This document shows, one piece after another, positions 40,870-45,016 of a DNA stretch of 58,320 nt (position 1 is its first letter; the number at the start of each line of letters is the position of its first letter). The notes beneath the pieces are model-generated. The model was not told where the DNA came from. It did not search any database and worked only from the letters and a program-made list of their open reading frames with translations. The position numbers and the translations under genes were made by a program. The DNA is from Acidimicrobiia bacterium (GTDB taxonomy: Bacteria; Actinomycetota; Acidimicrobiia; Spongiisociales; UBA11373), in NCBI GenBank assembly GCA_016932695.1, contig JAFGCH010000092.1:1-58320 (forward strand). The letters run 5' to 3'.

Positions 40870-41409
40870 TCATCGAGGTTCCGGATAGCGCTCCCCCAAG
40901 TGATCCAGGAATGAGCGCGCCGCCATCGCGTTGTGAGCTCGCCACAACTCCACCACATCCTCGGTGGAGCCGGCGGCCTGCGCCAAAGCCTGCAGCGCGT
41001 CGTGGAGCACGGTGCGCTGGCGGACGATCAACGGCCCCGGCGAGCCGCCGGCACGCTGCACGAGCACCAGTTTCACCAGGAATCCCAGCCGCAGATCGCG
41101 CACATGCCCCACCGGCTCTTCGAGCCACTGCTGCAGCCGCCGGCGCCCCTGTGGGGTGATCCGGTGGATCACCCGCTGCGGCCCGGCTTCCCCCGCCTCG
41201 ACCCGCTCCGGGGCGGCGAGACCCGCGCTCACCAGCCGCCCCAGAGCCCGATAGACCAAAGGCCGGCGCACGGTGACCACCCGACCCACCGGGCTGCCCG
41301 CCTCCAGCCCTTTGGAGAGCCCGAACCCGTGAGCCGGGCCCTCGGCGAGGAGGCCGAGCACGGCGTACTCGGTGAGCGAGAGCGGTGTCGGCTCCATGGC
41401 GGACTCCAT
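40870..41409 (-). CDS. PadR family transcriptional regulator
   Basis: The 179-residue protein has an N-terminal winged helix (LTEYAVLGLLAEGPAHGFGLSKGLE, RPLVYRALGRLVSAGLAAPERVE, HRITPQGRRRLQQWL) and a C-terminal Vir_act_alpha-type coiled dimerisation domain. PadR proteins are usually repressors that respond to small molecules. It is divergent from the FecBCD-type importer, with a perfect palindrome over a -10 box between them, so control of that operon is likely. Met5 is an alternative start. Confidence 0.9.
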   Translation of the reverse strand: MESAMEPTPLSLTEYAVLGLLAEGPAHGFGLSKGLEAGSPVGRVVTVRRPLVYRALGRLVSAGLAAPERVEAGEAGPQRVIHRITPQGRRRLQQWLEEPVGHVRDLRLGFLVKLVLVQRAGGSPGPLIVRQRTVLHDALQALAQAAGSTEDVVELWRAHNAMAARSFLDHLGERYPEPR

Positions 41410-41455: not shown

Positions 41456-41474
41456 TATAATCTCAATGAGATTA
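41456..41474. promoter_or_regulatory. Perfect -10 box overlapped by a palindromic operator
   Basis: TATAAT (41456-41461, plus strand) is a perfect -10 hexamer about 80 bases before the binding-protein gene. It overlaps TAATCTCAATGAGATTA (41458-41474), a perfect palindrome with 8-base arms and one central base. Binding there would block the promoter. The adjacent PadR regulator is the natural candidate, although the 8-1-8 form also resembles Fur-family sites. Confidence 0.75.
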
Positions 41475-41542: not shown

Positions 41543-42646
41543 ATGATGCACCGCCCCCGGCTGCGGGCCCTGGCGGCCCCGCTCCTGGCCGCCGTCATCG
41601 TCTTCGGCGCCGCTGGTTGCGGCGGGTCCGAGGCGGCGCCGTCGGGTGAGGAGATCACCGTGGTCGATGCCCTCGGGCGCACAGTGACTCTTCCGGGAGT
41701 GCCCGACCGGATCACGGTGGCCGGTCGCGGCGCCTTCATGATCTTCGACGCCCTCTATCTGTTCCCCGAAGGCGCCGACCGTCTCGTGGGCCTCGAGGCG
41801 GGCCGGCAATCCAATGCCGCCTTCGCCGCCCTCGTCGACCCGGCGCTGGACGCCAAGACCATCCTCGAGAAGAACGCCGGCGCCGAAGAGGTAGCCGCCA
41901 CCCGCCCCGACCTGGTCCTCCTGAAGTCGTACATGGCCTCCGATCTGGGGGAGCCCCTCGAGCAGTTGGGCATCCCCGTCGTCTACCTCGACCTGGAGAC
42001 CCCGGAGCAGTACCAGCGCGATCTGGCTCTTCTCGGAGCGCTCCTAGCGCAGCCGGAGCGGGCCGAGGAAGCGGCCGCCTTCTACCGCGACCGGGCTGCC
42101 GCCATCGCCGAGGCAGCCGCCGGCCCGGCCGCGGCTGCCCGGCCGCAGGTGCTGGTTTTGCAGTACTCGGCGGCCGAGGGCACCGCCACCTTCGAGGTGC
42201 CCCCCGTCTCCTGGCTGCAGACCACCATGGTCGACCTCGCCGGGGGCGACCCGGTGTGGGCCGAAGCCGGGGCGGGGGCGGGCTGGATCACCGTCGGCTT
42301 CGAGCAGATCGCCGCGTGGGACCCCGACCAGATCTACGTGATCTCCTACTCGGGCGACACCGACGGAGTCGTCGACGCCCTGCGCACCGACCCTGCCTGG
42401 CAGGCGCTGCAGGCGGTGCAGGGCGGGCAGCTGTACGGATGGCCCGGTGACGTCAACAGCTGGGATCAGCCCGACACCCGCTGGATCCTCGGCCTCACCT
42501 GGCTGTTCACCAAAGTGCAGCCGGAGGCCGCCGCCGGGATCGATCTCCCGGCCGAGATCGAAGCGCTGTTCACGCAGCTGTACGGGCTCACCCCGGCAGA
42601 GGTCGAGGCCGAGGTGCTCCCGACGCTCTTCGGCAGCGTGCCGTAG
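41543..42646 (+). CDS. Cobalamin/Fe-type ABC importer binding lipoprotein (FecB/BtuF-like)
   Basis: The 367-residue lipoprotein has a lipobox ending at Cys26 (VFGAAGC). The helical-backbone (class III) binding fold follows: TVVDALGRTVTLPGVPDRI, EEVAATRPDLVLLKSYM, LGIPVVYLDLETPEQYQRDLALLGAL. The cargo may be a siderophore, haem, cobalamin, or an oxyanion such as molybdate, since all use this fold. GGAGGA ends six bases before ATG 41543. It starts a four-gene operon with permease, ATPase and a THEP1-like NTPase. Confidence 0.92.
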   Translation: MMHRPRLRALAAPLLAAVIVFGAAGCGGSEAAPSGEEITVVDALGRTVTLPGVPDRITVAGRGAFMIFDALYLFPEGADRLVGLEAGRQSNAAFAALVDPALDAKTILEKNAGAEEVAATRPDLVLLKSYMASDLGEPLEQLGIPVVYLDLETPEQYQRDLALLGALLAQPERAEEAAAFYRDRAAAIAEAAAGPAAAARPQVLVLQYSAAEGTATFEVPPVSWLQTTMVDLAGGDPVWAEAGAGAGWITVGFEQIAAWDPDQIYVISYSGDTDGVVDALRTDPAWQALQAVQGGQLYGWPGDVNSWDQPDTRWILGLTWLFTKVQPEAAAGIDLPAEIEALFTQLYGLTPAEVEAEVLPTLFGSVP

Positions 42647-42648
42647 TC

Positions 42649-43668
42649 GTGACCGTCGAGGGAGCCCCGCCGCTCCGCCGGGTCGTTCGGGCCCTGTGGC
42701 CTCAGGCCGCGCTGCTGGTGCTGCTCGTCCTGCTGGCTCTCTTCGTAGGCCGCTACCCCGGGCCGTTCTGGACCCCGCCCTGGCTGCTCTGGCAGGACGA
42801 CCTGGCCGCCCGCGTGGTGTGGTCGCTGCGCTTCCCCCGGGTAGTGGCGGCGATGCTGCTCGGCATGAGCCTCTCCGGCGCCGGCATCGTGCTCCAAACC
42901 GTCTTCCGCAACCCCCTGGTGGAGCCGGGGTTCCTCGGGGTGTCCCAGGGTGCCGCCTTCGGCGCCGCCCTGGCCATCCTGGGCCTGGGCGCCGGGGCCT
43001 CGCCGCTGGCGGTGGAAGCCTCGGCTATGGCCTTCGCCCTGGGCGGCCTGGGGCTCTCCTACGCCGTGGCCCGCCGGCTCCACTTCGGAGGATGGGTGCT
43101 TCGGCTGGTCCTGGGCGGGATCGCCGTCTCGGCCCTGTTCTCGGCCGGGGTGGGCATCATCAAGTACCTGGCCGACCCCTTCGCCGAACTGCCCACCATC
43201 ACCTTCTGGCTGCTCGGCGGCCTTTCCGGAGTCACCTGGCCTGATGTGCTGTACCTGCTGCCCTTCGTGCTGCCCGGCCTCACACTGGTGGTGGCGATGC
43301 GCTGGCGGCTCAACCTCCTCAGCCTCCAGGACGAGTCGGCCTTTTCCCTGGGCTCGGCCTTGAATCGCGAACGCGGCCTGTTGCTGCTCGGCGCGGTCGC
43401 CGCTGCCGCCGCCGTCACCGCCGTGGGCGGGATCGTCGGCTGGGTCGGCCTGATGGTGCCCCATCTCGCCCGGCGCGCCTACGGGGCGGACTCTCGTCTG
43501 GCGGTACCGGCAGCGCTGCTGCTGGGAGGCACCTTCGCCGTGGTGTGCGACGCCGTCGCCCGCACCCTGCTGGCCGGCGAGATTCCTCTGGGGATCGTCA
43601 CCTCGCTCGCCGGGGCCGTCGGCTTCGTGGTGCTGATGAGCCGCGTCACCCTGCGGGTGCCCCGATGA
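42649..43668 (+). CDS. FecCD/BtuC family ABC permease
   Basis: The 339-residue permease has eight to ten hydrophobic helices and FecCD landmarks: LRFPRVVAAMLLGMSLSGAGIVLQTVFRNPLVEPGFLGVSQGA, VLGGIAVSALFSAGV, FWLLGGLSGVTW, VGWVGLMVPHLARRAYGADSR and GEIPLGIVTSLAG. The GTG start is two bases after the binding-protein stop, and its own stop overlaps the ATPase ATG (ATGA). Confidence 0.94.
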   Translation: MTVEGAPPLRRVVRALWPQAALLVLLVLLALFVGRYPGPFWTPPWLLWQDDLAARVVWSLRFPRVVAAMLLGMSLSGAGIVLQTVFRNPLVEPGFLGVSQGAAFGAALAILGLGAGASPLAVEASAMAFALGGLGLSYAVARRLHFGGWVLRLVLGGIAVSALFSAGVGIIKYLADPFAELPTITFWLLGGLSGVTWPDVLYLLPFVLPGLTLVVAMRWRLNLLSLQDESAFSLGSALNRERGLLLLGAVAAAAAVTAVGGIVGWVGLMVPHLARRAYGADSRLAVPAALLLGGTFAVVCDAVARTLLAGEIPLGIVTSLAGAVGFVVLMSRVTLRVPR

Positions 43669-44450
43669 CCGCGCCCATCCTCTCGGTGCGCGACCTCCAC
43701 TTCGGCTATGCCCCCGGTGCGCCGGACGCCCTGAGCGGCTTGACCCTGGACGTCCCCGCGGGGAGCACGACGGTGCTGCTGGGGCCGAACGGGGCGGGCA
43801 AGACCACGCTACTCCACGTCATCTTGGGGCTGCTCACCCCCCGGGCCGGCGAAGTGTGGATCGCCGGGCGGCGCCGGGCCGAGTGGAGCCGGCGCGAAGC
43901 CGGCCGCCTGGTAGCGATGGTGCCCCAGAACGAGTATGTGCCCTTCGACTTCTCGGTGCTCGAGTTCGTCCTCATGGGCCGCACCCCTCACCTCCCTACG
44001 CTCGGCATGCCCTCCGACGCCGACGTCGCCACCGCGATGGCGAGCCTGGAGGCACTGGGGTTGCGCCACCTGTGGAACCGCCCGGTGCCCGAGCTCAGCG
44101 GCGGTGAGCGGCAGTTGGCCACCCTCGCGCGCGCCCTGGCTCAGGAGGCTCCCCTCCTCTTGCTCGACGAGCCGACCGCCCACCTCGACCTGGGCAACCG
44201 CACCCGCCTGCTGAGCCTCATCGAACTGCTGGCCGCCCGAGGCAGCACGGTGGTGTTCACCAGCCACGACCCGGGGACGGCGGCTCCCGTGGCCCGCCAG
44301 ATCGTGCTGATGCGCCAAGGCAGAGTGCTCGCCGCGGGCCCGGCGAGTGAACTGCTCACCTCGGAGAACCTCAGCACCACCTACGGGGTCCCGGTCCGAG
44401 TCGCCCGCATCGACGGACTGCCGGTGGTGCTCCCCGGAGTTGCCCCTTGA
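43665..44450 (+). CDS. FecE/BtuD-like ABC ATPase
   Basis: The 261-residue ATPase has Walker A GPNGAGKTT, Q-loop VPQNEY, signature ELSGGERQLATLARAL, Walker B LLLLDEPTAHLDLGNR and H-loop FTSHDPGTA. Its spacing is typical of the iron/cobalamin importer class. ATG overlaps the permease stop and its stop overlaps the TTG of the NTPase gene (TTGA), so all four products are coupled. Confidence 0.95.
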   Translation: MTAPILSVRDLHFGYAPGAPDALSGLTLDVPAGSTTVLLGPNGAGKTTLLHVILGLLTPRAGEVWIAGRRRAEWSRREAGRLVAMVPQNEYVPFDFSVLEFVLMGRTPHLPTLGMPSDADVATAMASLEALGLRHLWNRPVPELSGGERQLATLARALAQEAPLLLLDEPTAHLDLGNRTRLLSLIELLAARGSTVVFTSHDPGTAAPVARQIVLMRQGRVLAAGPASELLTSENLSTTYGVPVRVARIDGLPVVLPGVAP

Positions 44451-45016
44451 CCTCCGGTACCCAGCCCCCTCAGTACCTGATCACCGGGGAGCGCGGAGCG
44501 GGCAAGACCACCTTCTGCTCCGGCCTGGTCACCGCGGTGCGCTCCCGGCACCCCGGCCTCCTAGTCGCCGGGATCCTCTCCCCCAAGGTGTTCGTCGGGG
44601 GCCAAGAGCATGCCATCGATGCCGTCGACCTGGCCTCGGGGCAGCGGCGCCGCCTCGCCCGGCGGCGCGCCCTGCCCGCGGCCACAGAGTCCGCTACCCC
44701 CCGCTGGGAGTTCGATGCCGCCGCCCTGGCCTGGGGCGAGGGGGTGCTGCGCTCCGCCACCCCGTGCGCTCTGCTGGTGGTGGACGAACTGGGTCCCCTG
44801 GAGCTCGAGCACGGGGAAGGCTGGCCGGCCGGTCTGCAGGCCGTCGACGGCGGCGCCTATCGCGTAGCCCTGGTGGTGGTCCGCCCCACCCTGCTGCCGC
44901 CGGCCCGCCGGCGCTGGCCCCGAGCACAGTTGCTGTCGGTTTCTGATCCCGAGCAGGCCGTGGCCGCCGCTCGCGAGACCGCCGCTGCTCTCACCCCCCT
45001 TCTGAGCCGGCCCTGA
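44447..45016 (+). CDS. THEP1-like NTPase (NTPase_1/DUF2478-type) in the importer operon
   Basis: The 189-residue protein has Walker A GERGAGKTT (residues 14-22), VAGILSPKVFVGGQEHAIDAVDLASGQRR, and Walker B-like LLVVDELGPLELEHGEGW. THEP1-type enzymes hydrolyse NTPs slowly, and their cellular role is unclear. DUF2478 relatives have been found in metal or molybdenum contexts, which I recall only as a trend. TTG 44447 overlaps the ATPase stop. Its inclusion in a FecBCD operon suggests a cargo-linked role such as insertion or activation of the imported metal. Confidence 0.8.
   Translation: MTSGTQPPQYLITGERGAGKTTFCSGLVTAVRSRHPGLLVAGILSPKVFVGGQEHAIDAVDLASGQRRRLARRRALPAATESATPRWEFDAAALAWGEGVLRSATPCALLVVDELGPLELEHGEGWPAGLQAVDGGAYRVALVVVRPTLLPPARRRWPRAQLLSVSDPEQAVAAARETAAALTPLLSRP

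Follow-up and report, generated by a model that had tools for sequence, protein, structure and literature searches.

The described systems nearest to the locus reported here are the MolBCA importer of Haemophilus influenzae (HI1470–1472), the type I importers ModABC, WtpABC and TupABC, and the THEP1/HCR-NTPase (NTPCR) family of P-loop NTPases (PF03266). MolBCA is a type II importer built like FecCD/BtuCD, whose FecB-type substrate-binding protein (SBP), MolA, binds molybdate and tungstate; the system runs parallel to ModABC in H. influenzae (PMC4031551). In a survey from 2018, 278 of 3,683 molybdenum-using bacteria had no known molybdenum transporter, and additional uptake systems were proposed to account for them (PMC6147048). 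For the NTPase family, what the human member, HCR-NTPase, does in vivo is stated to be unknown (PMC2700126).

Here we describe an operon that joins a MolBCA-like gene set to a THEP1-family NTPase gene, found in a window of 58,320 nucleotides (the whole stretch of DNA that was analysed) from an Acidimicrobiia bacterium. We put the probability at about two in three that the operon encodes a MolBCA-like type II molybdenum/tungsten (Mo/W) importer, in which the NTPase couples import to cofactor assembly and a PadR-family protein exerts control according to Mo/W status. This operon type is a concrete candidate for the uptake system of molybdenum users without a known transporter. If the reading is correct, it also places some members of the THEP1/NTPCR family, which has no known role even in humans, in a cellular context, and it points to a candidate Mo/W regulator of the PadR type. 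The Moco riboswitch paper mentions neither NTPase nor FecB (PMC2408646). A search of literature that mostly excluded subscription papers found no reports tying THEP1 or PadR to molybdenum; THEP1 and molybdenum are named together in a single paper, one time each.

Operon structure and probable divergent regulator

The four genes and the elements upstream of them are as follows:

40,870–41,409, minus strand: PadR-family regulator, divergent from the importer (PF03551, 36.9 bits)
41,458–41,474, no strand: perfect 8-1-8 palindrome TAATCTCAATGAGATTA, candidate operator between the PadR and SBP genes
41,543–42,646, plus strand: FecB-type substrate-binding lipoprotein (SBP), candidate molybdate/tungstate-binding protein (Peripla_BP_2, 87 bits)
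42,649–43,668, plus strand: FecCD-family type II permease (FecCD PF01032, 249 bits)
43,665–44,450, plus strand: ABC importer ATPase (ABC_tran PF00005, 110 bits)
44,447–45,016, plus strand: THEP1-family P-loop NTPase (NTPase_1 PF03266, 50.3 bits versus a cut-off of 23.9)

A preliminary description of this DNA had proposed a four-gene FecBCD and THEP1 unit at positions 41,543–45,016. All ORFs are present as placed, and the Pfam assignments (Peripla_BP_2, FecCD, ABC_tran and NTPase_1) agree with the proposed families and lie well over their cut-offs. As had been claimed, the SBP and permease genes are 2 bases apart, the permease and ATPase genes overlap in ATGA, and the ATPase and NTPase genes overlap in TTGA; GGAGG is located 5′ of the SBP start. 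The word 'fused', also used there, holds for relatives, in which true fusions occur, whereas the window genes are translationally coupled, separate ORFs.

On the basis of Pfam, the gene set has the FecCD permease, FecB-type SBP and ATPase layout of a MolBCA-type importer. It differs from MolBCA in the addition of THEP1, and relatives further add PadR, ModA fusions and Moco riboswitches; we know of no THEP1, PadR, ModA-fusion or Moco-riboswitch parts in MolBCA. With ModABC, WtpABC and TupABC the operon shares its proposed cargo, a ModA that Thermoflexales relatives carry as a fusion or a neighbour, and a PadR and operator in common with modAB of one carrier genome (G043), but these systems belong to the type I importers, their permeases and SBPs are unrelated to those described here, and none is encoded by the window operon. 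Among the matches listed, no NCBIfam equivalog was over its cut-off for any of the four proteins, and curated models therefore do not name the cargo of the importer. No Moco riboswitch was found around the window operon, where the lone sub-threshold Rfam match is a chance IRES match.

Four perfect 8-1-8 palindromes occur in the 58 kb, and the three besides TAATCTCAATGAGATTA are G+C-rich. In seven related operons (L006, L007, L009, L010, L026, L029 and L030) the SBP gene is immediately preceded by a PadR gene; these PadRs are related to one another and are 27–35% identical to that of the window. The palindrome ACTCAYYNAGTGAGT, from which that of the window differs, serves as the corresponding Chloroflexota element: it is placed like TAATCTCAATGAGATTA upstream of five related operons and upstream of a PadR–modA–modB operon (ModA, 171 bits; ModB, 212 bits) in G043, the carrier of the L005 operon, where the PadR heading modAB is 48% identical to the PadR of the L007 operon. 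In 855 kb of DNA examined, ACTCAYYNAGTGAGT occurs six times (five before module operons and one before PadR–modAB), with no occurrence in 20 shuffles. The window PadR probably regulates the importer operon, and the PadR that stands with a palindromic operator at the head of a modAB operon (L019:776–3006) is a candidate molybdate-responsive PadR.

Distribution of the module

A scan of named genomes with the NTPase recovered nine close loci, all in lineages labelled Chloroflexota, and the order SBP–permease–ATPase–THEP1 is kept in eight of them, including one that ends at a contig edge (L008). The window permease is 57–68% identical to its orthologues in L002–L010. A scan of 301 sampled Chloroflexota genomes (the phylum of L006) yielded eight with a matching SBP, and THEP1 was adjacent in seven of these. 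Nearer to the window, a genome of the same genus also has the operon, at another genomic site, and no operon match was present in the 38 other relatives sampled; among plasmid records, no THEP1 match was found. Conservation in relatives, which the preliminary description had treated as decisive, thus holds in part: most close relatives lack the operon, whereas Chloroflexota and the same-genus genome carry it. As the four-gene order is conserved elsewhere, the arrangement is not due to chance. The module is a real unit with a patchy distribution and has probably spread by transfer.

Molybdenum and tungsten genes at related loci

In one Thermoflexales MAG (L003), a single ORF consists of a ModA N-terminal half (TIGR01256, 159 bits versus a cut-off of 62.5) and an SBP C-terminal half, a fusion known from one MAG contig. 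A Moco/Tuco riboswitch (RF01055; 237–392, 60.3 bits) lies directly upstream of this operon, and the lipoprotein ATG is found approximately 85 bases past the riboswitch end. In another Thermoflexales MAG (L002), the operon directly follows a gene for an XdhC-family maturation factor and is itself directly followed by a separate ModA gene. ModA accompanies the module only in Thermoflexales relatives, as a fusion or a neighbour.

The NTPase gene is also found with an unrelated transporter, an arrangement that the preliminary description had expected to speak against a specific module. THEP1 does occur with an ECF-type transporter, yet these operons are led by Moco/Tuco riboswitches, which strengthens the link to Mo/W rather than weakening it. 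In both G053 and G136, THEP1 is the first gene of an operon that includes ECF-type transporter components (FmdE identified in G053), and RF01055 is located immediately upstream of it (74.3 bits in G053 and 69 bits in G136). Because the element is so rare in these genomes (one copy in 4.4 Mb of G053 and five in 5.9 Mb of G136), its placement beside THEP1 in both by chance is very unlikely. The THEP1-led ECF operons possibly represent an ECF-type Mo/W importer, a kind of which we know no description. THEP1-led ECF-type operons under a Moco riboswitch were observed at L031:4517–9720, with an ABC_cobalt-like S component, and at L035:6625–9604.

In other genomes of the window's phylum, DUF364/DUF4213 genes accompany Fec genes that adjoin a divergent THEP1-like gene (L055:7980–14379 and L061:6549–11341), and in L055 a YqeB–XdhC fusion gene (TIGR03309, 329 bits) is located near the Fec and THEP1-like genes. 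These clusters may represent a second form of the module for Mo, one that depends on selenium.

All of these Mo/W marks sit in relatives, to which the SBP is approximately 50% identical, and none was found inside the window. Elsewhere in its genome (G000), MoeA and four Mo-hydroxylase (MoCoBD_2) matches were identified, together with WtpA (265.8 bits versus a cut-off of 242.75) and a WtpB-like permease (G000:C36:1045–2917; L054). Given the presence of WtpAB, the operon would be the second Mo/W importer of the genome, comparable to MolBCA, which likewise has another Mo importer alongside. An ORF beside WtpA/WtpB has a weak C-terminal match to SoxC-type sulfite dehydrogenase. No ModA (TIGR01256) was found in G000 or G001; ModA over cut-off is missing in 22 of 40 relatives irrespective of the operon, and its absence from the window genome is therefore uninformative. 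On these grounds, and because the window genome has WtpAB, plain replacement of ModABC in this lineage was dropped as an argument.

Identity of the cargo

The operon could instead encode an iron-chelate (siderophore or haem) importer, with THEP1 serving metal metabolism as a general NTPase. Import of iron chelates is the classic task of the FecBCD family, the SBP model closely resembles the structure of iron-bound YiuA, and the NCBIfam matches of the SBP, all under cut-off, include IsdE and ferrichrome proteins. In the fold comparison MolA (approximately 19% identity to the SBP in the fold alignment) and YiuA, an iron-siderophore protein, are equally near to the SBP, and iron and molybdate are not separated by the structure search. 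In the profile search, however, MolA (3psa, 1.4e-20) ranks fourth, above YiuA, IsdE, FeuA and BtuF; to our knowledge, no cargo has been tested for the three PDB structures that precede it. The SBP sequence thus favours an oxyanion cargo, although it does not amount to proof. Further against iron, no iron gene was seen beside any module copy, and in relatives the neighbouring genes and fusion partners belong to Mo/W metabolism, as do the riboswitches. We regard the iron-chelate importer as unlikely. A ModA remnant at the N terminus of the SBP of L029 and L030 was considered and is suggestive only (hhalign probability of 38%).

Molybdate/tungstate as the importer cargo is well supported by genomic context in relatives, and we infer it for the window operon. 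The import module for a metal cargo proposed in the preliminary description is supported in this narrower form: the ModA fusion, the ModA and XdhC neighbours, the Moco riboswitches, the PadR and operator common to modAB, and the THEP1 fusions together narrow the metal to Mo/W.

The THEP1-family NTPase

The window NTPase is the only PF03266 gene of its genome. Its AlphaFold model (pLDDT of 93) matches only two PDB structures at E ≤ 0.001, human HCR-NTPase (2i3b, 3e-8) and A. aeolicus THEP1 (1ye8, 1.2e-5), with TM ~0.67, so that both the Pfam cut-off and the fold place it in the THEP1 family. The catalytic residues (Walker A, D113–E114 and R146) are conserved, as would suit the slow NTP hydrolysis of the family. 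C24, W96 and G125 are signature residues in most of the subfamily and are absent from the NTPCR-like members compared. The subfamily also sits in Mo/W contexts. A metal site formed by the cysteine pair C24/C107 is not claimed, as C107 is lost in some members.

In Dehalococcoides-like genomes (L038 and L039), THEP1 forms the N-terminal part of a MobA protein, with a membrane protein and a molybdopterin oxidoreductase encoded alongside. MobB, the NTPase partner of MobA, is absent from these genomes. Given that MobA–MobB bifunctional proteins are a curated arrangement in NCBIfam models, THEP1 occupies in the MobA fusions a place that MobB can hold. The two NTPases belong to different P-loop families, and the window NTPase has no match to MobB (PF03205). 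The window genome also lacks MobB; as the sampled relatives do too, this is uninformative about THEP1 as a MobB substitute there.

A tree of THEP1 genes did not unite the Fec-linked ones in a single clade. Several THEP1 genes stand alone, some have apparent sufS/nifU genes as neighbours, and a divergent THEP1 gene of G223 belongs to a cobU–cobS cobalamin cluster (L033:7493–10362) and has no importer adjacent. The family is therefore not exclusive to Mo/W. The G223 neighbourhood would suit import of corrinoids (vitamin B12 or cobinamide), with the imported compound as the target of a kinase-like NTPase, were it not for the missing importer, and among curated models the window permease and ATPase best resemble BtuC and a corrinoid ATPase. 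The scores are far under the NCBIfam cut-offs (BtuC, 169 of 461 bits; BtuF, 38.8 of 234 bits), and because BtuC and BtuD are well-modelled members of the fold family of the importer, such sub-threshold matches say little. Moreover, Moco rather than cobalamin riboswitches precede the operons of relatives, and we consider a corrinoid cargo highly improbable.

Proposed mechanism

Under the Mo/W import reading, the lipoprotein SBP would capture molybdate or tungstate outside the cell, and a FecCD permease dimer with the ABC ATPase would carry the oxyanion into the cell. THEP1, at the cytoplasmic face beside the ABC ATPase, would perform an NTP-dependent step that couples metal arrival to the assembly of the molybdenum or tungsten cofactor, and the divergent PadR would control the operon through the palindromic operator according to Mo/W status. 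THEP1 would act here in hand-off or in gating, with PadR as the presumed sensor of Mo/W.

Which of these two roles THEP1 may have is addressed by its junctions and fusions. In most operons the ATPase and THEP1 genes overlap by a few bases or abut, and the homologous ABC ATPase of L029 and L030 carries THEP1 at its C terminus (L029: ABC_tran at 22–170 and NTPase_1 at 293–401). Both observations would fit a Mo/W importer in which THEP1 brakes or gates the ABC ATPase in a nucleotide-dependent manner, analogous to the C-terminal regulatory domain that ModC bears. Such gating of the transporter is the chief rival to coupling of import with cofactor assembly, and we think it rather improbable: a pure transport brake leaves unexplained the MobA fusions of L038 and L039, in which no ABC importer ATPase is adjacent. 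A more specific version of the coupling role is that the THEP1 subfamily is a missing Mo/W hand-off factor, which would dock on the importer ATPase and deliver the metal, driven by NTP, to the MobA/MoeA end. This would account for the two kinds of THEP1 fusion, with the importer in one set of genomes and with MobA in another, and we advance it tentatively, as a possibility that is more doubtful than not. Near a THEP1–molybdoenzyme operon at L036:1928–7765, we observed genes that, read by eye, resemble a type I-C CRISPR–Cas cluster.
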